Assembly: GCF_000003815.2 (NCBI RefSeq)
Contig: NC_049996.1
Coordinates: forward strand, 16,066,258 to 16,130,257
Origin: Branchiostoma floridae
Taxonomy: Eukaryota; Chordata; Leptocardii; Amphioxiformes; Branchiostomatidae
Length of the DNA: 64,000 bases
Direction: 5' to 3'
Shown here: positions 1 to 59,225 of the stretch, one piece after another
Position numbering within the stretch: the first letter of the stretch is position 1
Layout: every line of letters begins with the position of its first letter
Notes under the pieces: generated by a model
Databases searched by the model: none
What the model was told of the DNA's origin: nothing
Seen by the model: the letters and a program-made list of their open reading frames with translations, nothing else
Position numbers and translations under genes: made by a program

Positions 1-181
1 GACTAACCATATATGGCCAGAAGACTTACCATATATGGCCTGAAGACTAACCATATATGGCCTGAAGACTTACCATATATGACCCGAAGACTTACCATAT
101 ATGGCTTGAAGATTATCATCTATGGCCAGAAGACTTACCATATATGGCCATAACAATACCATATATGGCCAGAAGACTTAC
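1..181 (-). repeat. boundary minisatellite: donor of the DFG exon, ~22-bp unit
   Basis: About nine imperfect 22-bp units, each resembling CATATATGGTAAGTCTTC on the minus strand. The unit starts with the last bases of the exon ending at 182 (ATATATG) followed by its donor GTAAGT. Most copies keep the GTAAGT; some carry GTTAGT or other changes. Confidence 0.85.
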
Positions 182-356
182 CATATATCAGCTTTTCTGC
201 CGTAACCTTCCCCGTTGATGACCTCTGGGCTCATCCAATATGGCGTCCCCGTGACCGTGCGCATTCCGGTGGCGCTGCAGATCGTCTGGATCCGCTTCGA
301 CGCCCCGAAATCTCCCAGCTTCACGTTTCCTGAGGAGTCCCTCAATATATTTGCAC
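182..356 (-). CDS. MAP3K2/3: MAP3K2/3 kinase exon: DFG and activation loop
   Basis: Encodes [40 protein letters not shown] and [18 protein letters not shown]. It carries the DFG motif, the activation-loop Ser/Thr residues and the P+1 loop (GTPYWMSPE). The acceptor is GTTCCCAG; the donor TATATG|GTAAGT splits a Trp codon. Later exons lie outside the window. Confidence 0.95.
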
Positions 357-2427
357 CTGGGAACAACGAGGGGACATGTTAGGGGGTAGGTTCATATATC
401 TGTTGATATATCTATCCCTCGGAAAGGACGTTAAATGGAGGTCCCGTGTCTGGGGAGAGCCATACCCATGCACGTCAAAGATCCCAAATGTGCGATGGTG
501 CGGTGTGCGATGGTGCAAATTCTTCTGTCTGGAGTTGGTGATTCACTACAAATCACCCGGATGGAGGTCTGGCGAACCTCCATACCGTATCAGCCACATG
601 GTGATTTACATCATTCACCCGGACGGGAGACCTGGCGCATCGACGTCTTGTAATTAGCCAGCGAAAGGGTAAGTCACTCCGTAAGGGGCGGTATAACCCT
701 GTCGTGTGTAAGCAGGTTGACTGCCGGATGATGATGAATATATCTAGTTTCCTAGCAACGTGTTTTGGCACTCCCAGTCAGTATAGTCCTACTGCTGGCT
801 CTAGTGTGTCCCATGCAGATAACATGTTGCTATGTAGATAACATGTTGCTATGCAGATATCATGTTGCTATGGAGATATCATGTTGCTATGGAGATATCA
901 TGTTGCTATGCAGATATCATATCTAGATGGCCGTACCTTTGATATCCCTGTGGACGATCATGTTGCTATGCAGATATCATGTTGCTATGCAGATATCATA
1001 TTGCTATGCAGATATCATGTTGCTATGCAGATATCATATTGCTATGCAGATATCATATTGCTATGCAGATATCATATCTAGATGAACGAACCTTTGATAT
1101 CCCTGTGGACGATCATGTTGCTATGCAGATATCATATTGCTATGCAGATATTATGTTGCTATGCAGATATCATGTTGATATGCAGATATCATGTCACTAT
1201 GCAGATATCATATCTAGATGAACGTACCTTTGATATCCCTGTGGACAATCATGTTGCTATGCAGATATCATGTTGCTATGCAGATATCATATTAAGATGA
1301 ACATACCTTTGATATCCCTGTGGACAATCATGTTGCTATGCAGATAGAGAATTCCCTCCAGTATCTGCCGTGTGTATTTCCGTGTTACATTCTCGGTAAG
1401 AGCTCCATACTGTCGGATCTGGTCCTTAACAGAGCCCTACAACAAACAGACAAACAAACAATAGTATTAACATGTGACAACTCATAGAGGGTTAAGGTTT
1501 GAAATATGTAAGTGTGAAACTGAGTATATGTGTGTGTGAATGTGTGTGATTCTATGCTCAAGCCAGGCATGTACTTCACATGTGTGTGCATGTATGTGTG
1601 TGTGTGTCTGTGTGTGTGTGTCTGTGTTGTGTGTGTGTGTGTGTGTGTGACTGTGTGTGTGTGCCTGTGTGTGTGTGTCTGTGTGTGTGTGTCTGTGTGT
1701 TATGTGTTCTCGTGTGTTCTCATGTTTGTTCTCATGTTTGTTCTCATGTTTGTTCTCAAGTGTGTTCTCATGTGAGGGAAGTTAGTACTCACCCCCAGCG
1801 AAGATACAGTGCCTGTTCTCGTGTGTGCCCTCATGTGTGTTCTTGTGTGTGTGTGTGTGAGAGAGACAGAGAGAGAGTATGTGTGAGAGGGAAGTTAGTA
1901 CTCACCCCCGGCATGTACTCCATGAAGACGCAGAGCCTGTTGTCTCATGTATGAGTGTGTGTGTGTGTGTATGTGAGTGTGTGAGCATGCGTGCATGTGT
2001 GCGTGTGTACTCACCCCCAGCATGTACTCCATGAAGATGCAGAGCCTGTTTTGTGCTAGTGTGTGTGTGCATGTGAGTGTGTGTGTGTGTGTGTGTGTAT
2101 GCAAGATTGTGTGAGCATGACAGTGTGTATGTTTGTGTTTTAGTGAGTGTACTCACCCCCGGCATGTACTCCATGAAGATGCAGAGCCTGTTCTCATGTG
2201 TGTGTGTGTGTGTGAGTGTTCTAGTGTGTATGTGTGAGTGTGTGAGAGTATGTGTGTGAGTGTGCTATAATACTCACCCCCGGCATGTACTCCATGAAGA
2301 TGCAGAGCCTATTCTCGTGTGTGTGTGAGTATGTGTGCCTGTGTGTGTACGTGTGTTTGTGTGTACTCACCCCCGGCATGTACTCCATGAAGATGCAGAG
2401 CCTGTTCTGTGTTAGTGTGTGTGTGAG

Positions 2428-2465
<38 letters not shown>

Positions 2466-5400
2466 TATGTATGTGAGTGTGCTATAATGCTTACCCCCGG
2501 CATGTACTCCATGAAGATGCAGAGCCTGTTCTCGTCCTGGATGCAGCCGTAGTACTGAACTATCCTCTCGTGCTGCAGGTTCTTCAACAGCTGGATCTCA
2601 CACTCCAGAGCTTTCACTTCCTGCTGTAAACAACAAACAACAAACAACTTTCACTTCCTGCTGTAAACAACAAACAACTTTCACTTTCTGCTGCACAACA
2701 CAAACAACAACTTTCACTTCCTACTGAACACAGAAAAATTCCTGTTGTAGACAAACAACTTTCACTTCCAGATGCTGTAAACAACAAACAACTTTCAATT
2801 CCTGCTGCACAACACAAACAAAAGCTTTCACTTTCTGCTTCACAACACTAACAACGTTTACTTCCTGCTGCACAACACTAACAACTTTTACTTCCTGCTG
2901 CACAACACTAACAACTTTTACTTCCTGCTGCACAACACTAACAACTTTTACTTCCTGCTGCACGACACAAACAACTTTCACTTCCTGCTGCACAACATAA
3001 ACAACTTTCACTTTCGGGTGCAGAACAACAACTTTCACTTTCTGCTGCACAACAAAAACAACAAAGCTTTCACTTTCTGCTACACAACACAAACAACTTT
3101 CACTTCCAATTGAACAACACAAACAAACAACTTTCACTTTCTGCTAACAGAAATAACTTTCCCTTCTAGCACAACACTCTCAGAACTCTAACACTGCAAT
3201 ACCACAACCAGCAATAGCAGACTGGATCTCACACTCCAGAGCTTTCACTTCCTACTGTAAACAACAAACAACAAACAACTTTCATTTTCTGCTGCACAAC
3301 ACAAACAACTTTCACTTCCAACTGAACAACACACAAAACTTTCTGTTGTAAACAAACAACTTTCACTTTCAGATGTTGTACACAAACAACTTTCACTTCC
3401 AACTGCACAACATAAACAACTACTTTCACTTTCTGATACACATTAAAAACAACTTTCACTTTCTACTGCACAACACAAACAAGAACTTTCACTTCCTTAT
3501 GTACAACACAAACAAGAACTTTCACTGTCTGCTGCACAATGCAAACAACAACTTTCACTTCCTCCCGTAAACAACAAACAACTTTCACTTTCTGCTTCAC
3601 AACACAAACAACTTTCACTTCCTGCTGTAAACAACAAACAACTTTCACTTCCTGCTGCACAACACAAACGACAAACATTTTTCACTGCTTCCTGCAAAAC
3701 ACAAGCAACAAAAAATTTTCATTTCCTTCATAACACTCTCAGAACCCAGGCAGCAGCATCATTAACCAGCAATAACTAGACTGACCTTTGAGGCCTCCAC
3801 GTTTTTGGGGTCGAGGTGGACCTGTTTGAGCGCGAGTTCTCGGCCGGTGTCGGCGTCGTAGCAGAGATACACCTGTCCGAAGGCGCCCTGCCCGAGCAGC
3901 TTGCCCTGTCGCCAGTTGGTGGGAGCTCTCGGTGCTGTGGAAACATGGAAGGTGTTAGGGACCTGCTCATATCAACACACACGTGTGACAAACTGCAGAG
4001 GGTTGGACAATTCCCGATTATCCCAGGCAAGTAAAAGTGCCCATCGAGCAAGCACAGGTCCTACACCACTTGACCGATCGGGCAAGTAAGATTTTTCCAT
4101 GATTGAGATTGCAATATACATACTTGTTACATCTCAAAGTCATGGCATCGAGAATTGGCTACATGGAAACATAGAGCCAATTATAATTAGATGTGGCTTC
4201 CATTGCTGGAAGTGAAAATACATAGAAAAGAAACATAATTCAAATTTTGGGCAAGTGAAAAGTTGGTTTGGGCTAGTAGTAGTGAATTTTTTTATGTACT
4301 TGCCCAATAGGATAAGTACAAAGCTTGTCCAACCCCGCTACTGCTCCTATAACAACTATGCAAACTGCCTAAACCACAGCTGTCACCTTTTCAATCTTGG
4401 GAGGGAAGGTCAAAGGTTAGTACATGAGCAGTCACCATGGCTACGACCTTTCACCTGCCCAGTGGCATACGACCCTTGACCCTTCACCTGAAGTTAGTCC
4501 CATTCTCCCACCAATGGTTTTACACAATAGGAAAGTCATACATGTGGCGGATCCTCGGTTTGCTACCAGCAACATCCACGGCTTTCTCTGGTACGCATTG
4601 TACAGAGCTACTGTGGTGGAATCTCTCCCCGCTACTGCAATATAAACAACACTCATCACGCAGGGCCGAGCTAGCCTAGGGGGTCTCTACTGACAGACTT
4701 ACCCTCCCTGCTACTGCATTACAAACAACACTCATCACGCAAGGCTCGGCTAGCCTAGGGGGTCTCTACTGACAGACTTACCCTCACTGCTACTGCAAGA
4801 CAAACAACACTCATCACGCGGGGCTCGGCAGGCCTAGGGGGTCTCTACTGACAGACTTACATGTACCCTCCCAACTACTGCAATACCACCAACATTTATC
4901 ATGTAAGGTTGGGCTAGCCTTGGGGGTCTCTACTGACAGACTTACCCTCCCTGCTACAGCAATATGCGTGTAAACAACAGTCATCACGCAGGGCTGGGCT
5001 AGCCTAGGGGGTCTCTACTGACAGACTTACCCCATAACCTAGAGCTCCCCACTACTACAATACGAAAAACACTCATCACAGTTGGCTGAATTAACTTAGG
5101 GGGTGTCTACTGACAGACTTACCCTCTCGTCTAGTGAAATACAAACAACACTCATCATGCACTGCTGGGCTAGCCTTGGGGGTCTTTACTGACAAATTCA
5201 ACCCCCCAACTACTGAAATACAGCCAACACTCATCACCCACAGCTGAGCTAGCCTAGGGTGACTTAAATGAGTCACTGACAGACTTTCCAAAGAATACAA
5301 CCAACATTCATCACACATGAGCGGGCTAGCCTAGGGGGTCTCTACTAACAGACTTACATAACCATCATTCACACAACATTCACAACACTCATCATGCGGG

Positions 5401-8400
5401 TAATATCACCATAGGGCATCTTTTCAGACAAGAGAGGTACTACAAGCCTATTTTTGCTTTTACTCAAAGGTCACCACGGAACACGACCGGAAGGTCACTT
5501 CAAGGTGTGACGCGAAGGCCATTCCAAGGTAACAGGTTACATAAGTTTTACACCTAAGGCTAACTGAAAAACTAAAAAACTGAAAAAGCATCTCTTCTCA
5601 CTTACGCATTGAGACCTGCACAACTGCTCACTAGTAAGAGTGAGGACTAACTGACCCAATAGCCGAGTACTCATTTACATGTACTACCGACTCCTTGTTA
5701 TACACTTCTGTTTCCTGTAGAAAATACAGCATGGTTACACATCAATGCTAGTTTACCTTTCTCCACTGGGTAACCTATTTCTATTGCTATTAGATGGTAT
5801 TCATTGATATCAAATCAATGGACGGTTCAAATGGCAATATTTTCAAAATATTGCAGTTTGAAACCACCATGTGCTGACGTGATATCCCTGTTTTCAAAAG
5901 CAACGGATATAGGATATAAAGCAGATAACCGGATGAACTAGCATCACAGGAGTACAATGCAAAACTTTCTTCCAACACAAAGGAATACACAGATCAAACT
6001 TTCAATGACTACTGTATCCCTTTGTGTTGGAAAAAAGTTAAGCATTGTACTATGATAACAAAACAGATAAACTTCCATGATGGTTGAATGTAAGTTCATC
6101 TGTGACGGTAGTCAACATTATGTTACAATTTTAAGACACTATATCCGTAGGCCATTTACATCAGAGCCCACCAACCTTCCCTCAACCGAGACGGGGGCCG
6201 ATACCGACTGCCAAGCACCTTTGACCCTTTAATGACGTCACACTTCCCGTACGGATATGTGACTTAGGCTTTGGGTCATTTCAACTTGAGAAGGATCAGA
6301 GGACTGATCGAAAGCTTGTTGGTAAGCGCTTTCTTTTGTGTACGGATATAGGATCTTAATATTGTAACATACATTTGCATAATTCCACCAGGTGTCATTA
6401 TACCGCCACCTCAAAAAACATTGTTATAGAGGCCTTTTCAAGATCGTCTTCAACACCTAAATATCTGAATTGTATTACATTTAGGATATTTAACATTCGG
6501 TTTCAAGACAATCTTGGGAAGACCTCTATACTAACGTTTTTTGAGGTGGCGGTATTATGGCACCTGGTGGAATTATGATAGTCGATGTTAACATAATCTT
6601 CTATGATCATGGTGTTTAAAAAAAGTAGAAAGCAGCGGCGGTGTGTGCGTCGCGGGCGCGGAACTTACATGACTTACATCTCGCCGGGTTGAGGTCCTGG
6701 AGACTCAGGACGGCAAGGTCGTAATCGCTGTCTCGTCTCTCGGAGTCCGTCACCAGCCCGCTGCTGCTGCTGCTGTTGCTAAGGGAACGCTCGCTGCCCG
6801 ACCTTGGACTGAACGTGCCCACCGGTCTTCTCAAGGTCGGACTGGGCTGCGGTCTTCTCGTTCTGGGGAATGTTTTACGCCCTGCGGAGAAAAACCGGGC
6901 CGTTATACAGGTCCTGGGGCTGAAAGCATACGTTATACAGGTTCTGGAGCAGAAAACACACTTTAATTATACATGTTCTGGGGCAGAAAAACTCCATATC
7001 TATACATGTTCAGGGGCAGAAAACACCCTTATAATTGAAATAAAAATGCAGTTCTTAAATGTTGGGAGATGGACGTTTCTTAGACAAGAGAGATTCCCAG
7101 TTACACACTAGTAGTATTAATATACTAGTACATGTTCTGTAATGAGACAAGAGATTTTAAGTTATACTCTTGCATGTTTTGTAGTGAGATTCTCCATGTC
7201 GCTGTTGGGGAGGTGGTGTGGATGAATTGAGATGACTGGTAAATTAGTGACTAGGTTGATAAGTTAGGGACATGTTTGCGAGGAAAGAAGACTAGCTTTT
7301 CTCACCGTCGCTGTAGTCGTGATGCGGGTTCGTCATGATGGTGGATCTTCTGGGGTACGTTCCACCTTTCCCGGCGCGCTCCACATGGGCCAGCTCGTGT
7401 TCTGGGCAGGGAACAATCAATTGATCAATCAATTAATCAATCAACTAATTAATCAAATAAATAATCAACCAAAACAGAAAGACAAGACACATTGACATCA
7501 GCTCGTGTTCTGGACAGGAAACAATCCAGCGATCCATCAATTTATCAGCCAATCAATCAATCATTCAATCAATTAATTAATCAACCAGAGCAGCTTACTC
7601 CACATGGGCCAGCTCATGCTCTGGGCAGGAAACAATCCAGCAATTTATCAATGAATGAATGAATCAATCAATCAATCGTATCATGTCCAAAATCATATCC
7701 AGTTGCTTGAGTAACTGCTTTTTTTGCGTATCTTATTACCTGGATGTCTGACCTTCATTGACCAATCACTCACTCACTCAATCAATCAATCAATCAATCA
7801 ATAAACAAATTGATCAATCAATCAATGAAACCAGAAAGATAGAACAAACCTGTACATGGGCCAGGTAACAACATCTATCTTATATATCTATTTATGAATC
7901 TTTAACTAAGTTTTACGTAATGCCTTTAGTTAAGTGATTTCCAGGGAAGCCCAAGCAGACTGGAGGCATACACATCCATCATGCACCAGGGCACTGTAAC
8001 ACACCCAGAATGCAACAGGGTAGCAACACCCAGCATGCACCAGGGCAATGTCATACCCAGAATGCACCTGGGCAATGTCACACCCAGAATGCACTAGGGC
8101 ACTGTAAGAGGACCACAAAGTTGAAGGTTGAACAAAGACACAGAGCAAATAGTACGTGAATACTGAACAATATCTATAGATTCTTCATGTTTGCTTTCAC
8201 ATCTTCTTCCCTGACCTTGGAATTGATGTTGCCAATCTATGAATGTATATGCTTTCCGATACATTTTTTCTTCGATCTACGGCACGTTTCTTAATTTTTG
8301 CAGCTGCTTTGTTCGACATTCAGTACGGTTAAAACATTCTCTTTTTGGAAACAGCTGAAAAGTGCAGATGTTATCAATATTTTCAAAGCAACATGTCCTT

Positions 8401-11400
8401 AGTGTAGTTCACAACAGCCTTTGCAGAAATCAGGCTGCAGCCATTTGCTGTGTCCACGGTTCAGCCATATTGGGCCAGGCAAAGCTTCATGTACATGTAG
8501 TTTCTAACCACTGAAAACCACACAGACACGACACGACGTAACAAGAAGTGAGGATGTTTACCTGAGACCCAAGAACGAGGGCCTAAAAACCCAGCTGGCA
8601 GCGGAAAAAAAGACAAAGCGTAAGAGCAGAACTACGGTATCATCAGGGAAATTTCGGCATTTTTCTACGAACCGCTCTAAAAATCATGTTACCACAAATA
8701 CACAATGGTAATCGATGGGTAACAATTATAAAGGGCAATACAATTCATAAAGTGAAAGTACTGGTTTACAAAGTTTACCCTCCTTTGTTTTTCACACGCA
8801 TGTGCTAAACAACATTGTCAATCTCGTTGTGTGAACTTACATAGCAGTGTGTCAGGTTGGGTCAGAAGCATGAGGAAACAGCACAACATTAGTACAACAA
8901 CAACACAGTACTGTGACAATATCAGTGTTCTCGCCAGGATTTCTTTCACAGCGTATGTAGAGGCATCTTAGTACTGCAAAGCCATGTGGTGAGTAATGCA
9001 GAAGTGAGCATTGTAGGGGGTCTGGGAGAATCCTCCCCTTGGAAGTTTTAAAGTTTTTAACCATCAGAAACAACATTTTGCTATATTTTGAGAGCCAAAT
9101 TTAGTAACATAAAGCCAACATTTTTAACCCTTTGTTCTAAAACAACAGAAAAGCCCCATACACTGGTTGAAACATAGCATAGGGGCCAAAATCACAACAT
9201 AGAGCCAAAATCACAGCATAGGGGCAAAAATCTCAGCATAGGGACCTCAATCACAGCATAGGAGCCAAAATCACAGTGTAGGAGCCCGCTATGCTGAAAA
9301 GGCCTGGCGAGACCACTGAATATTAGTAATATAACAACACATTACTAACAACATATTTTGGGTTTTACATTTGTACAAGAGCTTGAATATTTGCTGCAAC
9401 AACTTGTATTCAAATTGTAGATCAATCCTCACTTGAGACTTTACTTATTACAAAGATAAGTCCCTTGACTCCTTAAGAAAACAGACTTACCGCCAAGGAA
9501 CTCGTCTGAGAAGGCAGAGGAGCTCTTGGTCCGACTCATCCGTAGTCTGTTATAGTAGCTGTCACTACTGGCAGAAAGGAGAAGTCAGTCCAACGAACAG
9601 AGAACAATAGGTACAACAATACAACAAACATAATTTTACATTAATTGCAAAAGTATTTCTATTTATGCCATAGGTTCAGACCTGCACCTGAACCTCTGGA
9701 CCCGAGTCCAGACCAAACATAAACAAGAGGTTCGGTATGCAGCACTTCTTCAAGGTGTTTAGGACAAAAGATTTATTACTTAATAGACAGGACTTGTGCC
9801 ACTCATGTGCTTGTTTTATAAATGCTATATCAATGTTATTGACAATAAAGTTTAACCATTTTGCTTCTCTGACTCACGTGGCTTATTCAGTTATTACAGG
9901 AACCAACCATGCCTTGTGACACCATACACACCTCAAGACAAGCCATTACCCATATACTGTGCCCCCAAATTGCCCATATAAAGCGATTCCGTACCTTAGT
10001 CTGTCGAGCGAGGCAGAACTGCCCGAGTTTTCTGGACTACTGTACTCCAGAGGGTCGACCGACTAGAACAGAGAAGACATAATTAGAAATAAGGAATGCT
10101 CCTTCACACTTAAGACATCAGAAGACCCTTGAAATAAGAAAGTGGGTGCCTGCAAGACAATACAAACAAGACATTGGGTGTTTGAAAGACATTAGAAACT
10201 AGCGTGGCAACATTTTCAAGAAAATGCAGGATGTTTCCCTTACAGTAATATATAGCATTTGGCTCAGCCCTAAGGCTTCGCCAAGAAAAAGACCACTTTA
10301 CATTAGCTGCAGTATTTTGAAATTGCTGATATTTTGTTCATATTTGCTCTAACAGCTGATATGCCAATGCCAAAGGCAAATCTAAGCTCTGATGGTTCAG
10401 AACAGAACCTTCGGGAAATATAATAAGACAGTTTATCTCTGTAAGGTAAGAATCGGCAGCTCCTAGACACCATAAGATTAGACACTGGACATTAGACAGT
10501 GGGTGTCTGAAATAAGAAAGAGGGTATCTGTAAGACATTAGAAATAAGACGTGGGCGTAAGCCAAGAATTGCCATCCCCTTACCTCTGAGTCCAGACTTG
10601 ACTCAGGTATGAGGTGCCCTCCCCCTCGATGGAAGTGTAGGGGATGTAGCCCGTGTGTGTGTAAGACATTAGAAATAAGACACTGGGTGTCTGCAAGGTG
10701 AGAATTGCCATCTCCTTACCTCCGAGTCCAGACTTGACTCAGGTATGAAGGTGCCCTCCCCTTCGATGGAAGTGTAGGAACTACTGTGTCGCACTTCAGA
10801 GTCGGGGATGTAGCCAGTGTGTGTGTGTAAGACATTAGAAATAAGACACTGGGTGTCTGCAAGGTAAGAATCCCCATGTCCTTACCTCCGAGTCCAGACT
10901 TGACTCAGGTATGAAGGTTCCCTCCCCCTCGATGGAAGTGTAGGAACTACTGTGTCGCACTTCGGAGTCGGGGATGTAGCCCGGAGGCGGAGACTGTCGA
11001 TCCGTCTTCTTCTTGGTGGCGTCCGTGGTGGACTTGGACCTGGAGATGGGCACCGGTTTGGTACCCGTGGTCTGTGGGAGACAGGTTGGGGAGGTGAATA
11101 CAGTTAGGTTAGGGAAGTAAATACAGTCAGGTTGGGGATGTTAACACAGTCAAACCTGACCAAGATGACCACACAAGGGACCAGTGCACCAGTTTGGTAC
11201 CCGTGGTCTGTGGGAGACAGGTTGGGGAGGTGAATACATGAATGAATGAAGACCTTTATTTATTGTACATGAATGTAAGTTCATCTATGACAGTAGTCAA
11301 CATTATGTTACAATTCTTAACTTTACATCCGTACACAAACTAAAGCCCTTACCAACAAGCTTCTGACCAGTCTTCTGAACCCTATTAAGTTGAAAGAGGC

Positions 11401-14400
11401 CATCAACCTCACTTCCAGTCTGGATGTGTGACATAAGCTTTTGGTCATTTTAACTTGATGAGGATCAGAGGACTGATCGAAAGCTTGTTGGTATGCGCAT
11501 TATTTTGCGCACGGATGTAAAGTTTAAAATTGTAACATAACGTCACAGATGAACTTACATTCAAGTATTCACTTTCATTGTTACACAGTCAGACTCAGTA
11601 AAGGTATACTCTAGACTTAAGTCTTGTTTCGTTTCTACATAATAAAACCTGCACATTCACCTTTTTCACACAGCGCACNNNNNNNNNNNNNNNNNNNNNN
11701 NNNNNNNNNNNNNNNNNNNNNNNNNNNNNNNNNNNNNNNNNNNNNNNNNNNNNNNNNNNNNNNNNNNNNNNNNNNNNNNNNNNNNNNNNNNNNNNNNNNN
11801 NNNNNNNNNNNNNNNNNNNNNNNNNNNNNNNNNNNNNNNNNNNNNNNNNNNNNNNNNNNNNNNNNNNNNNNNNNNNNNNNNNNNNNNNNNNNNNNNNNNN
11901 NNNNNNNNNNNNNNNNNNNNNNNNNNNNNNNNNNNNNNNNNNNNNNNNNNNNNNNNNNNNNNNNNNNNNNNNNNNNNNNNNNNNNNNNNNNNNNNNNNNN
12001 NNNNNNNNNNNNNNNNNNNNNNNNNNNNNNNNNNNNNNNNNNNNNNNNNNNNNNNNNNNNNNNNNNNNNNNCTGTTCTAAAGAGGAATTTGCCAAAGAAA
12101 TACTAGTACATTAATCGATTTAATGGACTGAATACTTACAAAAGACTAAGTTGGTAGTCTTTCGTTTTTAGTGTCGTATTTAACGTACCCACAATTTATG
12201 TACTTCTTAGACAGAGTATACATAGTAACATTTTTGCAGATCATCTTGCCAACAATGAACAAAGTAGTTTTCAATTTACAATTTTTGTGTATTCCTTGTT
12301 GTAAATATCGTAGGGTCCGGAGGATAGGACGCTAGGGGGGGTTGAATCTACGTGTTACGGCGTCATAACCAACGTGGAACGGGGCCTTCTGATTGGTCCG
12401 CGGCGCCTGGCTATATGATAATACACAATAAAAACCTGTATAAAATAATGACTAAACAATACAAAATAAAAACCTGTAGAATATCGTCATCAACAAAAGT
12501 TCTCAAGGAAACAAAACAACATCTCATGAGTCATAAGGAGAAAGCAAAGAAAATCGTAAGAAATGAAAAGAAGAAGAAAAAGTCGCTGTCACAAAGAGGT
12601 TATGGGAACATCAAGGTCACATCAAGGTCACGTCCACGACTTGACTAGAGTCTTACGGATTCTTCTCCGTCGACTTCTTCCCCCGCATCTTCCAAGGCCT
12701 CAGCCTCGGAACCAGCCTCCTTAATTGACTCTTCGATATCTTCTTGAGGAGGAACAGAAGACGTGTCTGAAATAGCCTCTTTCGCTGAGTCGTCAGGAAT
12801 GCTGGTGTCTTCCTTGACCGAGGAAGTGTCCGAGTTGTGTTCCTTGACGGAAGAAGTGTCGGAAATTGTCTCCTTGACGTCGGCGAGCTCCTCCTTAGCG
12901 GAGGTGCTGCCCGTGTCTCCGACGGACGCAGCTTCCGAGGTGTCTTCTCGCGTGGAAACGGACACTTCCGACGCCGTGTCCTCCTTAAGGAGGGTTCCAA
13001 GGAGCAGCAGGAGCAAAGGAAGGTGTGCGTTAGAATAAGGAATAAGGCAAGAACTTTCACTTTCAGTAGGACAGACAAGAACTTTCACTTTCAATAGGTC
13101 AGGAAAGAACTTTCACTTTCAGTAGGACAGGAAAGAACTTTCACTTTCAACAGGACAGGAGAGAACTTTCACTTTCAACAGGACAGGCAAGAACTTTCAC
13201 TTTCAATAGGACAGGAAAGAACTTTCACTTTCAGTAGGACAGGCAAGAACTTTCACAGGCAAGAACTTTCACTTTCAATAGGGCAGGAAAGAACTTTCAC
13301 TTTCAATAGGACAGGAAAGAACTTTCCCTTTCAATAGGACAGGCAAGAACTTTCACTTTCAATAGGACAGGCAAGAACTTTCACTTTCAATGGGACAGGA
13401 AAGAACTTTCACTTTCAATGGGCCAGGAAAGAACTTTCACTTTCAATAGGGCAGGCAAGAACTTTCACTTTCAGTAGGACAGGCAAGAACTTTCACTTTC
13501 AATAGGACAGGAAAGAACTTTCCCTTTCAATAGGCCAGGAAAGAACTTTCACTTTCAGTAGGACAAGAAACAACTTTCACTTTCAATAGGACAAGCAATA
13601 ACTTTAACTTTTAATCGGACAGGCAAAAACTTTCACTTTCAATTGGACAGGCAAGAACTTTCACTTTCAATAGGAGAGGCAAGAAGAGTCTTTAAGTCAC
13701 AGCCAAGACGTCTTGACATCAACATTGAACAGTGTTAGTCACAGTGAGTCTATTATGGTATTTTAGAAAAGCTTGTTCAGGACAAAGTGTAGAATGAAAA
13801 AGAGACTTTGGAAACATCCTCAGTATAGCAACTGTACCTGGGTTCAGGTATGATATAACTAATGGTGAAGGACTGTTTTCAGGTGTTATTGACAATGTTT
13901 ACAATGTATTAGGGTTCTCACCAGGATTTTTTAAGGATCTTACTTCAGTGGTACAGGCATAAGCATTGTAGGGGGTCTGGGGTATTATCCCTCTGAAAAT
14001 GTTTGAATTTATAACTCTCAGAGATACCATTTTCTGCATTCTTAGAGCCAAGTTTAAGCATAGGGACCCAAATAAAAGCATAGGTGATACAAATTACAGC
14101 ACAGGAGGATACAAATCATAGCATAGGGCTATGACATAATGACAGGTGTTTTTTTTTTCTTTTAAGGTGTCCTTAACATGTTGTTGACAGTANNNNNNNN
14201 NNNNNNNNNNNNNNNNNNNNNNNNNNNNNNNNNNNNNNNNNNNNNNNNNNNNNNNNNNNNNNNNNNNNNNNNNNNNNNNNNNNNNNNNNNNNNNNNNNNN
14301 NNNNNNNNNNNNNNNNNNNNNNNNNNNNNNNNNNNNNNNNNNNNNNNNNNNNNNNNNNNNNNNNNNNNNNNNNNNNNNNNNNNNNNNNNNNNNNNNNNNN

Positions 14401-17302
14401 NNNNNNNNNNNNNNNNNNNNNNNNNNNNNNNNNNNNNNNNNNNNNNNNNNNNNNNNNNNNNNNNNNNNNNNNNNNNNNTTAATGGTTGAAATTTTTGTTT
14501 TCTGCAGTGCAAAACATATTTTTTTGTTTGCTTGATTGTTCCTACATTTTAGGGTGGTTAAAGAGTATGTTTTGTTTGTTTTAACATCAATGTTGTGTAT
14601 AACATGTGTTCACTCTTACCTCAGTGTAAAACATGTTTGTTTGTTTGTTTGTTTGTTCTTACCTCAGTGTTAGTGTAGAACATGTTTGTTTGTTTGTTTG
14701 CTCGTTCTTACCTCAGTGTTCGTGTAGAACATGTTTGTTTGTTTGTTTGTTTGTTCTTACCTCAGTGTTAGTGTAGAACATGTTTGTTTGTTTGTTTGCT
14801 CGTTCTTACCTCAGTGTTAGTGTAGAACATGTTTGTTTGTTTGTTTGTTTGTTCTTACATCAGTGTTAGTGTAGAACATGTTTGTTTGTTTGTTTGTTTG
14901 TTCTTACCTCAGTGTTAGTGTAGAACATGTTTGTTTGTTTGTTTGCTCGTTCTTACCTCAGTGTTAGTGTAGAACATGTTTGTTTGTTTGTTTGCTCGTT
15001 CTTACCTCAGTGTTCGTGTAGAACATGTTTGTTTGTTTGTTTGTTTGTTCTTACCTCAGTGTTAGTGTAGAACATGTTTGTTTGTTTGTTTGTTTGTTCT
15101 TACCTCAGTGTTAGTGTAGAACATGTTTGTTTGTTTGTTTGTTTGTTCTTACCTCAGTGTTAGTGTAGAACATGGTGAGTAGCTGCCCGTACGCCGTCTT
15201 CACTTTATTTTGTAAATCCTGGAAGTTGACTGGTCGGGGGACCTGGATTATTCTGGGGTGAGGAAAAAACAACAAACAAATAAATAAAACAGCTTCTCTC
15301 AAGTCTCATGACGACATGTATATGTTTCTTACATGTGTCTAACCTAAGGTTTTGAAATGATGGTGGAAGCAAAGGTCTGTTAAGGTTTCATCATTGTCTC
15401 ACTTATTTGGTAGTATGATGTTACGTATATATTGTTGTTCTTTGGTTTTGCTACAAAGAATTTTGTCCAACATTTTTAGTACTTATCTTGTAACTTTGAC
15501 TGAGATGATGCATATGAATTTTGAACAAGGTTTCCCTCCTGAGACACACTAAAAAGTGCCATATGGCAAATTGTTTTGCCCAGTGTATCTGTATCTGTAT
15601 CGATATAGCCGGTATATCCGCCCTTCAGCGTAACACACCAGCTTCAAACAAGCCAGTGAAACAAACAAGAGCGGTACCTTTTCTCCCCCTGGAACTCGAA
15701 CTTGACCCTGACATCAGTCTGTGAGGAGGATTTGGAGCTGGAATGCGACTTGTGCCAGGCCGACTGCTTCATGCCGGCAGCCAGGTCATTCTTGATGGAG
15801 TTCAAAGCCTCTTTTTCATCTGCAACAGACACAACAGCACACTTTTAATATTTGTTTTACACTTAAAGAAAACAATAAATACATGACAATGAAATATAAA
15901 AGAACATAAAAGTGCAAGGGAGGCCAGAGGTTTCTTCCCTTTAAGAACTTGTTACCATTTATATAAATTTTTTATTTTTTTTTTTTTTATTTACTTAGAG
16001 GTCACCGCAAAACAAGGCTCATGGAGCCACTCAAGCGTTTTGGGTTACATTACTGAATTGTGAAGAGAGATGTTTGTTTACCCTTAATTTAAACAGTTTC
16101 AGGCTGTACCCTGTGGGGAAGCAAGTCCGTGGAAGCTTATTCCATAGCGATGTTGTTCTAGGAAAAAAGCTCTGAGCGTGGAACTTCCTCCTGTTAGGTG
16201 GATTGTGTAGGAAAAAAGGATGATTTGTTTCCGTGGAAGTGGCTAAACGGGTTCTTGCTGTGAAGGTTCGTATTGAGGGCACAAGTGAATGAAGTTCTGC
16301 CGAGCATTTACCATGGAAGTACCGATAGAAAAGTGCTAGGCTAGCTACATCACGCCTTTGGGCCAATGGTTGTAGTGTGGCGAATAAGTCGCTGCCAACA
16401 ATGTTCCTTAACCGTTTTTGTACTCTATTGAGGCAGGTCAGGGAGTTCTGGGAGGCTCCAGCCCAAATGTGACAACAATATTCCATTTTGGGCCTTATCT
16501 GTGTCTTATATAGATAAAGAATAGCAGAGGGGGTAAGATATTTTCTGGTTCGGTACAAAGAGCCCACCATTTTCCCAGCTTCCTTGGCAACGGATTGAAT
16601 GTAACAATTCCACTTAAGATCAGGTGTAAATTTTAGGCCCAAGAGTCGCTCAAAGCATGGGGCTTCTTTTAGTAGAGTCCCACCCATTTGGACCGGTGGC
16701 AGGTTCGGATCGGATCTTTTATGATGGTACGAAAGAAGGTTTGTTTTTGAAGGGTTGAAGGTCACAAGCCACGTTTTGCCCCATTGAACTGTATGATCAA
16801 GGTCAGCAGAGAGATTAGCTGCAAGGGAGCGGTCATTACATCTCTTGGATGTGTGGCCAAATACTGAAGTGTCATCAGCATATATGTCGACAAATGATCT
16901 CAGTATATGATCAGGCAGATCATTTATGTAGATTAAAAATAATGTTGGACCGAGGATGGATCCTTGCGGTACTCCAGCATTGATGCTATGACATTCTGAT
17001 TTTTGACCATTTATAATGACCTTCAGAGATCTGCAGAACAGGAAGGATTTTATTGTTGCTAGAATCTTGCCGCAGATGCCATAGCTGGCAAGTTTATGCA
17101 GTAAACCTCTATGCCATACCTTGTCAATTAAACAAAAGAAATAAGTATGGATAATAAATACTATGTCAGAGGTTTTCCCACATAGAGACTCACAGTACTG
17201 TCCATGGCAACATTTTATTTAACAATTCGGAAAAGGAGAAGAACAAATAGGACAAATATACAAATGTATCATGGTGACGATAAAAGTTCTATACTGACCC
17301 AT
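182..17302 (-). CDS. MAP3K2/3: MAP3K2/MAP3K3-like MAP kinase kinase kinase (partial, 3' end outside window)
   Basis: Cytoplasmic Ser/Thr kinase of the MEKK2/3 family, which phosphorylates MAP2Ks (MEK5, MKK4/7) in the ERK5 and JNK pathways. Exons, in transcription order: 17302-17299, 15819-15678, 15252-15153, (gaps; candidate 12983-12657), 11071-10886, 10062-9995, 9567-9491, 7401-7306, 6881-6678, 3934-3786, 2620-2495, 1436-1307, 356-182. The joins tested keep the frame, with GT donors and AG acceptors. The N-terminus [10 protein letters not shown] and the block [13 protein letters not shown] are typical of MEKK2/3 before and into the PB1 domain; [19 protein letters not shown] and KTFPRTRR match its linker; the kinase has the glycine loop [12 protein letters not shown], the lysine in ALKQV, HRDIKGAN and the DFG loop. 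The end of PB1 is missing, probably in the 11679-12071 or 14193-14478 gaps. The kinase C-lobe after ADIW lies beyond the window. I cannot decide between MAP3K2 and MAP3K3; a pre-duplication single orthologue is likely. Confidence 0.93.
388..745 (+). repeat. SINE-like dispersed repeat in a MAP3K2/3 intron
   Basis: The segment with CACCCGGATGGAGG, CCGTATCAGCCACA and TCATTCACCCGGACG recurs at 22550-22745 with the same order of blocks. The opening part (CCCTCGG, ATGGAGGTCC, GTG, then GAGAGCCA) also resembles the tail of the tRNA-like element at 17400-17720. It is best read as a SINE family member; the coding appearance of its frames is not supported. Confidence 0.55.
820..1300 (-). repeat. boundary minisatellite: HRD-exon donor, compound units
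   Basis: A short unit of about 19 bp (GCAGATATCATGTTGCTAT on the plus strand) is repeated, and three larger units near 936-960, 1088-1112 and 1224-1248 reproduce the 3' end of the exon at 1307-1436, including codons VHRDIK and the donor AAAG|GTACG. Copies lie in the intron downstream of the real donor. Confidence 0.88.
1307..1436 (-). CDS. MAP3K2/3: MAP3K2/3 kinase exon: catalytic HRD loop
   Basis: Encodes [20 protein letters not shown], then [18 protein letters not shown] and HRDIK plus one base. It contains the HRD aspartate. The acceptor is TTGTAG and the donor AAAG|GTATG. The hinge joins as MEYMPG+GSVKDQ, identical in layout to vertebrate MEKK2/3. Confidence 0.95.
1520..1780 (+). repeat. 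(TG)n microsatellite
   Basis: Near-continuous TGTGTG with short interruptions. Similar TG-rich blocks separate the donor copies up to 2470. No gene is expected here. Confidence 0.9.
1780..2490 (-). repeat. boundary minisatellite: hinge-exon donor (six copies) in GT-rich DNA
   Basis: Six copies (near 1786, 1901, 2011, 2151, 2271, 2366) reproduce about 42 bases of the end of the exon at 2495-2620 (codons [11 protein letters not shown]) plus the donor GTGAGT. They are separated by long (TG)n-rich simple sequence, spaced about 95-140 bp. All lie in the intron downstream of the true donor. Confidence 0.9.
2495..2620 (-). CDS. MAP3K2/3: MAP3K2/3 kinase exon: C-helix to hinge
   Basis: Forty-two codons: [20 protein letters not shown], then [20 protein letters not shown] and PG. 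It carries the C-helix glutamate and the hinge MEYMPG. The acceptor is a tandem NAGNAG (ACAGCAG), so a variant with one extra Gln (start 2623) is possible; the family consensus (SKEV) favours the second AG. Both edges of this exon have been copied into the flanking introns. Confidence 0.95.
2622..3775 (-). repeat. boundary minisatellite: acceptor of the C-helix exon, ~30 copies
   Basis: Roughly thirty units of 28-40 bp read, on the minus strand, TTGTGCAGCAGGAAGTGAAAG and variants: polypyrimidine/TG-rich stretch, NAGNAG acceptor and the first codons of the exon at 2495-2620. A longer copy at 3215-3260 also includes codons for ALECEIQ. All lie in the intron upstream of the true acceptor. Confidence 0.9.
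3786..3934 (-). CDS. MAP3K2/3: MAP3K2/3 kinase exon: glycine loop and catalytic lysine
   Basis: Encodes [20 protein letters not shown], then [20 protein letters not shown] and [10 protein letters not shown]. It contains the nucleotide-binding loop GQGAFGQV and the lysine of strand 3 (ALKQV). The acceptor is TTCCACAG and the donor AAG|GTCAGT, phase 0 out. Confidence 0.95.
4085..4600. other. MAP3K2/3 intron, no gene seen
   Basis: Intron between the exons ending at 3934 and 6678. AT-rich unique-looking sequence; no conserved frame or repeat recognised. Confidence 0.5.
4610..5345 (-). repeat. ~75-bp tandem repeat with donor-like motif
   Basis: About nine imperfect copies of a unit containing GCTAGCCTAGGGGGTCTC, TACTGACAGACTTACCCTC and CAACACTCATCACGC. 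On the minus strand each unit holds GAGGGTAAGTCTGTCA, which resembles a strong 5' splice site, but I find no conserved exon from which it derives. Confidence 0.8.
5780..6060. mobile_element. dispersed repeat with inverted ends
   Basis: An inverted repeat (CTTCCAACACAAAGG near 5970 and CCTTTGTGTTGGAA near 6020, extended by GTACAATGC/GCATTGTAC) sits in a segment whose ATATTGCAGTTTGAAACCAC block recurs near 58235. It is probably a non-autonomous element fragment. Confidence 0.45.
6085..6372. mobile_element. MITE, TGAATGTAAGTTCATC family (copy 1, right end disrupted)
   Basis: The left end TGAATGTAAGTTCATCTGTG and internal blocks (AACATTATGTTACAATT, GGATCAGAGGACTGATCGAA, AGCTTGTTGGTA) match the complete copy at 11270-11563. 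The right terminal repeat is missing where another hairpin element begins at about 6378, suggesting nested insertion. Confidence 0.7.
6378..6578. mobile_element. hairpin MITE with ~55-bp inverted ends
   Basis: The ends CATAATTCCACCAGGTG, TACCGCCACCTCAAAAAAC (left) and GTTTTTTGAGGTGGCGGTA, CACCTGGTGGAATTATG (right) form long inverted repeats, continued inward by ATAGAGG...CCTCTAT. No coding capacity. Confidence 0.8.
6678..6881 (-). CDS. MAP3K2/3: MAP3K2/3 linker exon (KTFPRTRR) before the kinase domain
   Basis: Encodes [20 protein letters not shown], then a Ser-rich stretch coded by GCT/AGC runs, and ends [10 protein letters not shown]. Human MAP3K2/3 has RKTFPR and a Ser-rich segment at the same place. 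The acceptor is CTCCGCAG. Two donors stand nine bases apart (AGAT|GTAAGTCAT|GTAAGTTC). The first joins in frame to SPRAPTNWR. Confidence 0.9.
6885..7040 (-). repeat. degenerate repeats upstream of the KTFPRTRR exon
   Basis: Three or four copies of a 35-40-bp unit (TTATACAGGTTCTGGAGCAGAAAA and variants) lie immediately upstream of the acceptor at 6882. The GGGGCAGAAAA part resembles the acceptor flank GCGGAGAAAAA, so a boundary origin is possible but weaker than elsewhere. Confidence 0.55.
7306..7401 (-). CDS. MAP3K2/3: MAP3K2/3 linker exon (KGGTYPRR)
   Basis: Encodes [19 protein letters not shown], then [14 protein letters not shown]. The motif GKGGTYPRR is diagnostic of MEKK2/3. The acceptor is CTGCCCAG and the donor ACG|GTGAG. 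Acceptor-plus-exon copies lie in the upstream intron near 7500 and 7600. Confidence 0.9.
7402..7860 (-). repeat. acceptor copies of the KGGTYPRR exon within (ATCA)n repeats
   Basis: Copies of the acceptor plus exon start (TGCCCAG/AACACGAGCTGGCCCATG and variants) occur near 7500-7525 and 7592-7630, with a further remnant near 7855. They are embedded in (ATCA)n simple repeats in the intron upstream of the real acceptor at 7402. Confidence 0.8.
7955..8110 (+). repeat. short tandem repeat (~34 bp)
   Basis: Four to five imperfect copies of ACACCCAGAATGCACCAGG with GGCA(A/C)TGT between them. Intronic; no coding signal. Confidence 0.7.
8925..9305 (-). repeat. dispersed repeat, 'agcatagggg' family
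   Basis: The blocks GTTCTCGCCAGGATTT, GCATTGTAGGGGGTCTGGG and repeated ATCACAGCATAGGGGCC recur at 13910-14130 and partly at 52020-52110 (CTAGCCAGGATTTCATTTTAGCATAG) and 53360-53440. It is an interspersed repeat of unknown class. Confidence 0.6.
9491..9567 (-). CDS. MAP3K2/3: MAP3K2/3 linker exon (Ser/Arg-rich)
   Basis: Encodes [20 protein letters not shown] and then DEFLG. The split serine codon (AG + T) joins exactly to the preceding exon. The acceptor is TGCCAG and the donor GCG|GTAAGT. RTKSSS could be a phosphorylation site of the 14-3-3 type, but that is inference. Confidence 0.85.
9995..10062 (-). CDS. MAP3K2/3: MAP3K2/3 linker exon (SSPENSGS)
   Basis: Encodes [20 protein letters not shown] and the following RL. 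The SSPENSGS block matches the human MAP3K2/3 linker. The acceptor is TTCTAG and the donor AAG|GTACGG; it starts in phase 0 and leaves two bases of a codon. Confidence 0.87.
10575..10885 (-). repeat. two partial copies of the [11 protein letters not shown] exon with donor
   Basis: A copy at about 10718-10812 reproduces codons [31 protein letters not shown] and the donor GAG|GTAAGG. A shorter copy at about 10582-10652 has one base deleted in the codons for TFIPE, which shifts its frame. Unit spacing is about 165 bp, with a shared spacer (GACATTAGAAATAAGACACT). No full acceptor is seen for either copy, so they look like decoy donors rather than alternative exons. Confidence 0.88.
10886..11071 (-). 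CDS. MAP3K2/3: MAP3K2/3 linker exon with [11 protein letters not shown] motif
   Basis: Sixty-two codons, phase 0 to 0. The acceptor is CTCCCACAG and the donor GAG|GTAAGG. It encodes a basic stretch ([12 protein letters not shown]), then [29 protein letters not shown] and SLDSE, matching the conserved linker of MAP3K2 ([14 protein letters not shown] and EGEFIPES). The 3' part and donor are duplicated twice in the following intron. Confidence 0.9.
11270..11563. mobile_element. MITE, TGAATGTAAGTTCATC family (complete copy)
   Basis: Inverted ends TGAATGTAAGTTCATCTATGAC and GTCACAGATGAACTTACATTCA with an internally palindromic body (CATCCGTACACAAA ... GCGCACGGATG; ACCAACAAGCTT ... AAGCTTGTTGGTA). 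It is preceded by GAATGAATGAAGACCTTTATTTA, a motif that also flanks other insertions (51285-51310). Confidence 0.85.
11679..12071. other. assembly gap (393 N)
   Basis: Run of N. It falls between the PB1 exon and the linker exon of MAP3K2/3 and may hide the missing PB1 C-terminal exon. Confidence 0.99.
12657..12983 (-). CDS. candidate Ser/Glu/Asp-rich exon in the MAP3K2/3 locus
   Basis: An open stretch of 109 codons, phase 0 at both ends, begins after a pyrimidine-rich acceptor CTCCTTAAG and ends at the donor TCC|GTAAGA. The product is acidic, with imperfect repeats of SDTSSVKE. Length, phase and strand would fit between the PB1 exon and the 11071 exon, but vertebrate MEKK2/3 has no such segment that I recall, and the acceptor is the less favoured AAG. 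It may be a lineage-specific linker exon or a non-coding repeat-derived frame. Confidence 0.35.
13030..13690 (-). repeat. 28-bp tandem repeat upstream of the candidate acidic exon
   Basis: About 22 units of AAGAACTTTCACTTTCAA/TAGGACAGG. On the minus strand each unit reads CCTATTGAAAGTGAAAGTTC. The last unit merges into the sequence 40-50 bp upstream of the candidate acceptor at 12983. The AGTGAAAG element is shared with the repeat at 2622-3775. Confidence 0.9.
13910..14135 (-). repeat. dispersed repeat, second copy of the 8925-9305 family
   Basis: Shares GTTCTCACCAGGATTTT, GCATTGTAGGGGGTCTGGG and the tail of repeated AGCATAGGGACC with the copy at 8925-9305. Confidence 0.6.
14193..14478. other. 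assembly gap (286 N)
   Basis: Run of N inside the MAP3K2/3 intron following the PB1 exon. Confidence 0.99.
14600..15150 (-). repeat. boundary minisatellite: PB1-exon donor, 49-bp unit x ~11
   Basis: Regular 49-bp units. On the minus strand each has CTACACTAACACTGAG|GTAAGAAC, that is the last 16 bases of the exon at 15153-15252 plus its donor, followed by a CAAACAAACAAA-rich spacer. The period is nearly constant and most units are almost identical, so the array is young. One unit has the donor changed to GATGTAAG. Confidence 0.93.
15153..15252 (-). CDS. MAP3K2/3: MAP3K2/3 exon 3: PB1 domain core
   Basis: Encodes [18 protein letters not shown] followed by [16 protein letters not shown], the middle of the PB1 fold that pairs MEKK2/3 with MEK5. 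The acceptor is CACCCCAG. The donor GAG|GTAAGAAC is the first of about twelve copies of the same donor downstream (see the repeat at 14605-15150). It ends in phase 0, so the missing PB1 exon must start in phase 0. Confidence 0.9.
15678..15819 (-). CDS. MAP3K2/3: MAP3K2/3 exon 2: N-terminus and start of PB1
   Basis: Encodes [19 protein letters not shown], a Ser-rich spacer and [12 protein letters not shown]. The acceptor is TTGCAG and the donor AAG|GTACC. The phase fits both neighbours. This matches the human family pattern, in which the conserved N-terminal helix is followed by the first PB1 strand. Confidence 0.9.
15968..17130 (-). mobile_element. 5'-truncated non-LTR retrotransposon (LINE, CR1/Jockey-like reverse transcriptase)
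   Basis: A single uninterrupted frame from about 17126 to the stop near 16031 encodes the C-terminal half of a reverse transcriptase. It has [12 protein letters not shown], the motif [20 protein letters not shown], the catalytic IYADD (about 16874-16890), [10 protein letters not shown], and the typical tail [17 protein letters not shown] and LNRVQKRL. The 5' part, with endonuclease and the first RT motifs, is missing. After the stop comes a short 3' UTR and a poly(A)-like tract at 15968-16000. The element sits in MAP3K2/3 intron 1 in the same orientation as the host gene. The absence of frameshifts or stops suggests recent insertion. Assignment to a clade would need a phylogeny. Confidence 0.88.
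17299..17302 (-). CDS. MAP3K2/3: MAP3K2/3 coding exon 1: start codon plus one base
   Basis: Only four coding bases, ATG G, precede a donor (G|GTCAGT). Joined to exon 2 they give [10 protein letters not shown], matching the known family start. The 5' UTR part of this exon probably begins at an AG near 17346-17356 (CTCCCCACAG or the next AG 10 bases on). An upstream out-of-frame ATG at 17337 opens a 13-codon reading frame ([13 protein letters not shown]) whose stop is formed across the splice junction and overlaps the main start. Confidence 0.8.
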
Positions 17303-31300: not shown

Positions 31301-31747
31301 GTGGGATATCTAAAGAAATCAAACGTATGGTGAATTGGTGATTATCAAATATTACTCACATATATGTCTAGGTAGAGTAGGGTGCATATTTATCAAAGTA
31401 ACCGAGAAGCGGCCTTATAATTACCTGGCCATTACGGTAGTTTGCACGGCCGAGGTTGGAGGATCAGTCGTCACGTGAGCCGAGGTTGCAGCTATGGGGG
31501 TTACGTGAGCTGGTGTTGCAACTACGGGGGTCACGTGAGCGGTCACGTGAGTCGAGGTTGTAGATGTTGTATTCACGTGAGTCGAGGTTGTAGATGTTGT
31601 ATTCACGTGAGCCGAGGTTGTAACTACCCGGGTCACGTGACCCGATGTCGTTGTGTTTGCCACGTGACCCGGAGTTGCAGACGTCACGTCGTCTGACGTA
31701 GCAGCGACTGAGGTCACAACTTCGGTGTCTTCATCGTTCGACGTCAT
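25327..31747 (-). CDS. unrecognised Thr/Ser/Val/Pro-rich protein, 1042 aa, three exons
   Basis: Exons 31747-31425 (323 nt), 28495-27673 (823 nt) and 27309-25327 (1983 nt) join in frame (phases 2 and 0) with donors CAG|GTAATT and GTG|GTAAGC and acceptors CTCCCAG and ACACAG, giving 1042 residues and a stop. Exon 1 starts MTSNDEDTEVV and is rich in TTSTHV repeats. Exon 2 carries tandem 11-12-residue repeats of SELSEPPVAKVT, coded by 33-nt DNA repeats, then YQVVPVVQNGVQCRLLMPLN. Exon 3 is low-complexity (long TVV/APT stretches) with islands such as VYNIIKVTPPPPGG, VVLINGQPYKLVPCP, YIVVYPNKP and SKIFRLEPPRP. It ends in a charged, probably helical tail, DERVRRLKEILREREAAVEE then LRKRKKT. Basic patches (IKRPKPAEK) suggest nuclear import. 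The composition resembles metazoan transcription cofactors, but I cannot name the family. The exon joins are well supported by phase; function is inference. Confidence 0.75.
27860..28320 (-). repeat. 33-nt coding tandem repeat in exon 2 of the Thr/Pro-rich gene
   Basis: Nine or more 33-nt units (CACCTTGGCAACCGGTGG and TTCGGACAGCTCGGATGT on the plus strand) followed by shorter 18-30-nt variants (EPSVAKVT). All units keep the frame, so the array is maintained as protein; copy number is likely polymorphic. Confidence 0.9.
28600..30060. other. intron 1 of the Thr/Pro-rich gene, nothing recognised
   Basis: AT-rich unique-looking intron sequence without conserved frames. Confidence 0.45.
30070..30322. 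mobile_element. MITE, 'AAGGTGNACTCTCA' family (copy 1)
   Basis: Inverted ends AAGGTGGACTCTCATTGCAC and GTGCAGTGAGAGTGCACCTT, with the sub-terminal blocks CACTGCGGGGTTCGTAGA and ACGAAGCCCGCAGTG inverted too. A second copy is at 40777-41015. Confidence 0.85.
30355..30620 (-). repeat. tRNA-derived SINE (minus strand)
   Basis: On the minus strand the head reads GCGTAGTCCAGTGGTTAGCA, followed by a B-box-like GAGTTCGATTCCGGC, then a long tail ending near the 30355 side. Typical tRNA-head SINE layout, in the intron of the Thr/Pro-rich gene. Confidence 0.7.

Positions 31748-45789: not shown

Positions 45790-59225
<13,436 letters not shown>

Follow-up and report, generated by a model that had tools for sequence, protein, structure and literature searches.

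The stretch of DNA analysed here, referred to as the window, comprises 64,000 nucleotides (nt) of Branchiostoma floridae (assembly GCF_000003815.2, contig NC_049996.1, positions 16,066,258 to 16,130,257) and carries three genes, all on the minus strand: MAP3K2, TGFBR1 and, between them, an LRIF1-like gene. In MAP3K2 and TGFBR1, copies of an exon edge together with its splice site were found at 15 of 46 tested exon–intron boundaries (9 of 23 donors and 6 of 23 acceptors). In TGFBR1, a copy of this kind seems to have been turned into a coding micro-exon.

The genes were named from protein searches; the best solved-structure matches were TGF-beta receptor type-1 and MAP3K2. Exon ends were placed by alignment to the proteins found, together with the GT/AG rule. 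The joined MAP3K2 exons (438 amino acids) are identical to the B. floridae protein P0133 over 406 of 406 aligned residues, while TGFBR1, once joined, agrees end to end with P0001 (B. floridae x B. japonicum, isoform X2), 517 of 520 residues being identical. Exons 182-356, 1307-1436 and 2495-2623 are genuine MAP3K2 exons, as indicated by Branchiostoma protein matches and by splice junctions that fit.

Arrays of exon-edge copies in MAP3K2 and TGFBR1

The MAP3K2 boundaries with copies, and the arrays derived from them, are the following:

182-356, minus strand: MAP3K2 exon, parent of a donor array (protein match)
1-181, minus strand: donor array of exon 182-356; 22-bp unit of 7 exon nt plus GTAAGTC
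1307-1436, minus strand: MAP3K2 exon, parent of a donor array (protein match)
820-1306, minus strand: donor array of exon 1307-1436; 3 copies of 40 exon nt plus the donor
2495-2623, minus strand: MAP3K2 exon with arrays at both edges (protein match)
1780-2494, minus strand: donor array of exon 2495-2623; about 40 exon nt plus the donor, with CA-rich intron spacers
2624-3730, minus strand: acceptor array of exon 2495-2623; unit of about 30 bp
4542-4634, minus strand: alternative MAP3K2 exon, parent of an acceptor array (protein match)
4635-5394, minus strand: acceptor array of exon 4542-4634; 79-bp unit, 7 copies reaching the dinucleotide, 5 with AG
7306-7401, minus strand: MAP3K2 exon with 2 acceptor copies upstream, 7499-7534 and 7598-7637
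10886-11071, minus strand: MAP3K2 exon with copies at both edges (protein match)
10572-10885, minus strand: donor array of exon 10886-11071; 2 copies, 58 and 75 exon nt plus the donor
11186-11232, minus strand: acceptor copy of exon 10886-11071; single duplication
14571-15152, minus strand: donor array of exon 15153-15252; 12 copies of a 49-bp unit, GT in 12 of 12, 96% matches in Tandem Repeats Finder (TRF)

Six TGFBR1 boundaries with copies lie between 45.9 and 51.2 kb (donors 47542, 48979, 50154 and 51150; acceptors 45921 and 48364). Donor 51150 is treated below with the micro-exon; the copies at the other five are:

49553-50153, minus strand: donor array of exon 50154-50384; 4 copies with 57-75 exon nt, GT in 4 of 4
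48560-48978, minus strand: donor array of exon 48979-49146; 4 matches with GT, one of them intron-only
48417-48470, minus strand: acceptor copy of exon 48208-48364; 39 exon nt, AG intact, single duplication
46913-47541, minus strand: donor array of exon 47542-47666; 4 matches, 2 with GT
46025-46093, minus strand: acceptor copy of the last exon, 45790-45921; 47 exon nt, AG intact, single duplication

Seven donors and six acceptors were detected by a spanning rule, which demanded at least 6 nt across the boundary and limited the exon query to 75 nt. Donor 15153, missed by this rule because its intron side is microsatellite-masked, was added by hand, and donor 51150 was added by a wider search, being positive only when the search extended beyond the micro-exon. 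Donors 3786 and 51150 and acceptor 50814 beat the shuffles without spanning and were scored negative under the rule, as was the acceptor of exon 50154-50384 (score 25, best shuffle 20), which spans by 5 nt. The census leaves out the alternative exon at about 12652-12985 and an exon lost in an N gap. A repeat unit that spans an exon–intron boundary, by which the 'mirages' of amphioxus genes are recognized, was found at all 15 boundaries.

The four MAP3K2 boundaries named in the original prediction (donors 182, 1307 and 2495 and acceptor 2623) do carry arrays, with copies scoring 62-95 against best scores of 16-35 in 100 intron shuffles. The feature extends past positions 1 to 3775, where it had been placed, to MAP3K2 boundaries up to 15153 and to the six in TGFBR1. 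Copies at one or both edges were found for 7 of 12 tested exons in MAP3K2 and 6 of 12 in TGFBR1, so that the description of nearly every exon of the kinase gene as affected was too strong. The arrays had also been said to start exactly at the boundary; instead, the units straddle it, with an exon part that ranges from less than 10 nt to at least 75 nt. They are tandem units of minisatellite size, with TRF periods of 22, 30, 49, 79, 149-151, 166 and 217 bp among others, and up to 27 copies.

The individual arrays differ in their composition. At the donor of exon 182-356, five copies exceed the threshold, all with GT, and TRF reports 8.6 units of 22 bp. The donor of exon 1307-1436 has 16 matches, 3 of which reach the donor (GT in 3 of 3), while the other 13 are exon-only pieces of about 19 nt, indicating that copying also acts on units inside units. 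The donor of exon 2495-2623 has 7 matches (6 reach the dinucleotide, 5 with GT), and its acceptor at 2623 has 28, of which one is the site's own flank and the other 27 reach the dinucleotide, with AG in 22. The intron that holds this acceptor array shows repeats at 90% of sampled positions. No copy was found at the acceptors of exons 1307-1436 and 182-356, and the donor of the first TGFBR1 ectodomain exon (56196) has no spanning copy.

Some further details of these genes were recorded. A 28-bp array at 13045-13685 (23.3 copies by TRF) has GTGAAAGTT in common with the acceptor array 2624-3730 and lies upstream of the alternative exon at about 12652-12985, which is known from other Branchiostoma proteins. 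Exon 2495-2623 has a tandem acceptor, CAGCAG, at 2620-2623, and the extra Q is present in some Branchiostoma models and missing from others. At 6669-6678, exon 6669-6881 has a pair of donors spaced by 9 nt (GTAAGTCATGTAAGT), of which the models inspected there use the downstream one. The TGFBR1 ectodomain has two alternative exons, 55449-55712 and 56196-56459; the latter is matched by P0001 and the former fits the listed B. belcheri and B. lanceolatum proteins better.

Arrays seem to be gained and lost from one species to another. In P0136, a MAP3K2 model of B. lanceolatum, one peptide occurs twice, with VS directly behind its first occurrence. Since VS corresponds to a read-through of GTCAGT, the donor of exon 3786-3934, the coding sequence of P0136 apparently extends into a donor-side copy. 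The same donor has no boundary-spanning copy in the window, which suggests that array sites vary among species. Among the 29 closest MAP3K2 models (28 named Branchiostoma and 1 other), an exon edge of at least 8 amino acids is repeated in 1 and in none of the other 28, exon parts shorter than 8 amino acids escaping this test. The sole other repeated word, SDTSSVKE, occurs in 5 models, where the repeat lies within an alternative exon.

The splice dinucleotide is kept in 70 of the 80 copies that reach it (GT in 38 of 41 at donors and AG in 32 of 39 at acceptors); six acceptor rows that represent the sites' own flanks stand outside these 80, and one donor row is intron-only. Mean copy identity is 0.94 in the exon parts (1920 nt) and 0.90 in the intron parts (1273 nt), and the observed retention of 0.88 compares with 0.85 predicted from general copy identity. 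Retention of the dinucleotides is thus about equal to that of the copies as a whole, and selection on them has left no apparent sign. Selection might in principle retain the copies, either as regulatory decoys or as alternative splice sites. The many intact dinucleotides, the 30 of 41 donor copies whose splice-site score equals or exceeds that of the true site, and the one annotated isoform that includes a copy would agree with this, although only 6 of 39 acceptor copies reach that level. With retention close to that expected from general identity, and with array sites that seem species-variable, as at the donor of exon 3786-3934, selection of this kind is an unlikely explanation.

A micro-exon and a doubled GS box in TGFBR1

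Three further features of TGFBR1 concern the fate of one such copy:

51150-51276, minus strand: TGFBR1 exon ending in the first GS box (MTTSGSGS|G), parent of the micro-exon (protein match)
50776-50814, minus strand: 39-nt micro-exon, phase 1-1, between TGFBR1 exons 51150-51276 and 50154-50384
50686-50710, minus strand: further copy (24 of 25 nt) of the end region of exon 51150-51276, 65 nt beyond the micro-exon and within an intron of the joined model

The micro-exon codes for 12 residues between split glycines and is in frame in the joined TGFBR1 model of the window. Across its 3´ part and donor, 26 of 28 nt are shared with the corresponding stretch of exon 51150-51276 and its donor, GTGAG included, and no other 28-mer on either strand of the window, apart from the parent, reaches 20 of 28. 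An exon that copies the edge and splice site of its neighbour is what a mirage-derived exon should look like, and judged by its sequence the micro-exon appears to be an exonised donor-side copy of the end of the preceding exon. Phase 1-1 cassette exons are common, which would also suit an ordinary alternative exon whose likeness to the GS box arose by convergence or from duplication of a whole exon. This origin is rather unlikely, given that the match runs past the coding end into the donor, that 5 of 7 repeated codons are identical between the micro-exon and the end of the parent exon, and that a further copy of the parent end region lies at 50686-50710.

At the protein level, the micro-exon is present in all three Branchiostoma TGFBR1 models listed, which come from three assemblies. 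Among the best 120 of 5106 matches, the resulting doubled GS box (starting TTSGSGSG-(M/L)) occurs in P0001, P0002 and P0003, the three Branchiostoma proteins (B. belcheri, B. lanceolatum and B. floridae x B. japonicum), and is absent from the remaining 117. Passages of PMC3333473 describe TTSGSGSG as the motif that the type II receptor phosphorylates to activate the type I receptor, and the GS domain as bound by FKBP12. The micro-exon would alter this activation motif, and its second GS box may be functional. No report of a doubled GS box in amphioxus was found in the literature searched, a coverage outside which most subscription papers lie.

We are inclined to think that boundary minisatellites are a source of new lancelet exons. 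The TGFBR1 micro-exon would have been recruited before the sampled Branchiostoma species split and would have been kept, doubling the GS phosphorylation box, while other copies, such as that in the B. lanceolatum MAP3K2 isoform, would have been tried and lost.

Origin of the arrays

The arrays are best explained as amphioxus mirages, a reading to which we assign a probability of roughly 0.8. Short segments straddling a donor or an acceptor would have been tandemly duplicated in the DNA, and the duplicates would then have expanded and partly decayed within the intron. Copies could persist as long as the exon body and one working splice site remain in place; the site that adjoins the exon body would be the one spliced, with intact copies acting as decoys. 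The founding duplications appear to be part of the intense minisatellite turnover seen in these introns, possibly with a modest preference for boundaries, and replication slippage or unequal crossing-over in repeat-rich introns would be the simplest process. Now and then a copy would enter the mRNA, the clearest case being the TGFBR1 micro-exon, a donor-side copy preceded by an acceptor. The comparison with mirages, already drawn in the original prediction, holds for both the anatomy and the host, which is a cephalochordate, as the MAP3K2 (P0133) and TGFBR1 (P0001) matches to Branchiostoma show.

That copying occurs at the DNA level follows from the comparison of spliced and unspliced sequences. 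With up to 3 mismatches allowed on both strands, 0 of 25 exon–exon junction 26-mers were copied, versus 12 of 46 unspliced boundary 26-mers. The earlier suggestion of repair templated by spliced ends fails on this count and, since no evidence was found for a spliced RNA or cDNA template, whether through such repair or through retroposition, an origin of this kind is hardly credible.

The window contains N gaps, one of them of 100 nt beside the TGFBR1 micro-exon, and reads of a single boundary might have been wrongly stacked in a draft assembly. However, the copies differ from one another in bases and spacing, the micro-exon is present in the protein models of three assemblies, and haplotypes of the globin gene BflGb6 with 6 and 3 units are reported in passages of PMC3087553. 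An assembly artefact is accordingly very improbable.

Whether boundaries are special depends on the control. In a first comparison, at score 38, 13 of 46 boundaries were positive, as against 137 of 600 random intron positions downstream and 151 of 600 upstream, with no boundary effect by this measure. Raw repeat coverage of the same introns at this score predicts 11.0 of 45 boundaries, versus 14 observed (p = 0.15), and at scores of 46-62 this control gives p = 0.06-0.08. Because only one unit per array can be the parent, a founder-copy control was also used, devised after the raw comparison had shown no effect, which takes the frequency at which intron positions are themselves the first or the last unit in an array. 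At score 38, this control yields 14 of 45 boundaries versus 3.8 expected (p = 2.7e-6), divided into 8 of 23 donors (1.8 expected) and 6 of 22 acceptors (2.0 expected). As conserved parents stay detectable for longer, the expectation was doubled as a worst case, to 7.6 (p = 0.006). The strictest score, 62, gives 10 of 45 versus 3.0 expected (p = 1e-4), or 5.9 when doubled (p = 0.025). These p-values take boundaries as independent and come from two genes only; the 45 do not include the acceptor of exon 15678-15819, as only one end of its intron is known. For the two genes, the figures make a modest boundary bias likely but do not establish a strong one.

The proposal of a mechanism acting at the junctions thus holds in part: the excess over the founder-copy control stands after correction, while that over raw coverage is not significant. 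R-loops, suggested as its basis, are not supported overall. Of the 11 arrays (out of 15) with a value for sense-strand GC skew, 6 are positive and 5 negative, so that there is no common sign; the three acceptor arrays measured are all positive, as R-loops or co-transcriptional damage aimed at the junction would favour, but only 3 of 8 donor arrays are. Donors and acceptors are both affected, which also speaks against such a mechanism. Moreover, a tandem copy across one splice site spares the exon body by geometry, so that the confinement of the arrays to introns needs no mechanism. A process directed at junctions is therefore possible, if doubtful, as the maker of the copies.

Several points weigh against the interpretation of the arrays as mirages that expand, decay and are occasionally exonised. 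In a sample of two genes and 45 boundaries, any excess above background hinges on the null chosen, and in the LRIF1-like gene the sole verified intron, 27310-27672, has copies at 0 of 2 boundaries. The splice sites presumed to be used are those of deposited protein models. Gene models can be propagated between assemblies, so that the three with the micro-exon may not be independent, and the 100-nt N gap at 50866-50965, between the micro-exon and its parent, conceals part of the intron.

Relation to known mirages and other features of the window

Mirages have already been described in the amphioxus Adh3, globin, troponin C and PGBD5 genes. Those of Adh3 (Canestro et al. 2002, as cited in passages of PMC3087553 and PMC3902484) are boundary-spanning tandem repeats with units of 10-72 bp, for which undisturbed splicing and length and somatic instability are reported (via PMC3087553). 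The arrays of the window resemble them as tandem repeats across exon–intron boundaries of Branchiostoma genes, and differ in affecting two further genes and 15 of 46 boundaries, with TRF periods of 22-217 bp and up to 27 copies. The mirages of the globin genes BflGb6 and BflGb9 likewise occur on donor and acceptor sides, many copies having AG or GT, and their authors propose, in the passages available, that a boundary copy could become an exon and create an intron (PMC3087553). Whereas exonisation is a hypothesis in the globins, TGFBR1 offers a coding micro-exon, apparently copy-derived, in the protein models of three assemblies. For the splice-site tandem repeats of lancelet PGBD5, re-sequencing is reported by the authors to speak against assembly error (PMC3902484); they concern one gene, and the passages available do not mention a conserved new exon.

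Outside lancelets, passages of PMC2812944 on human internal tandem repeats in segmental duplications offer a relevant likeness, in that boundary minisatellites may yield new introns; these are coding repeats of recent paralogues, in contrast to intronic arrays of boundary copies. The passages available of a huntingtin paper mention tandem repeats, but not boundaries.

What appears to be new here is the number of further members and the one copy that has seemingly turned into a conserved coding exon, for which no precedent was found in the literature searched, a collection short of most subscription papers. The mirage reports consulted proceed gene by gene, whereas about one third of the tested splice sites are involved in these two kinase genes. 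The arrays offer natural tests of how the spliceosome chooses among many near-identical sites, and the TGFBR1 micro-exon would provide an actual example of the transition, so far only proposed, by which a duplicated boundary gives rise to a new coding exon.

Elsewhere in the window, a Pfam search of ten further open reading frames gave no match. Upstream of MAP3K2, a reverse transcriptase fragment (RVT_1, E 1.8e-17) lies at 16031-17218 on the minus strand. Finally, minisatellites at 27890-28478 and 31470-31622 fall inside stretches matching LRIF1-like Branchiostoma proteins, which are themselves repetitive there.

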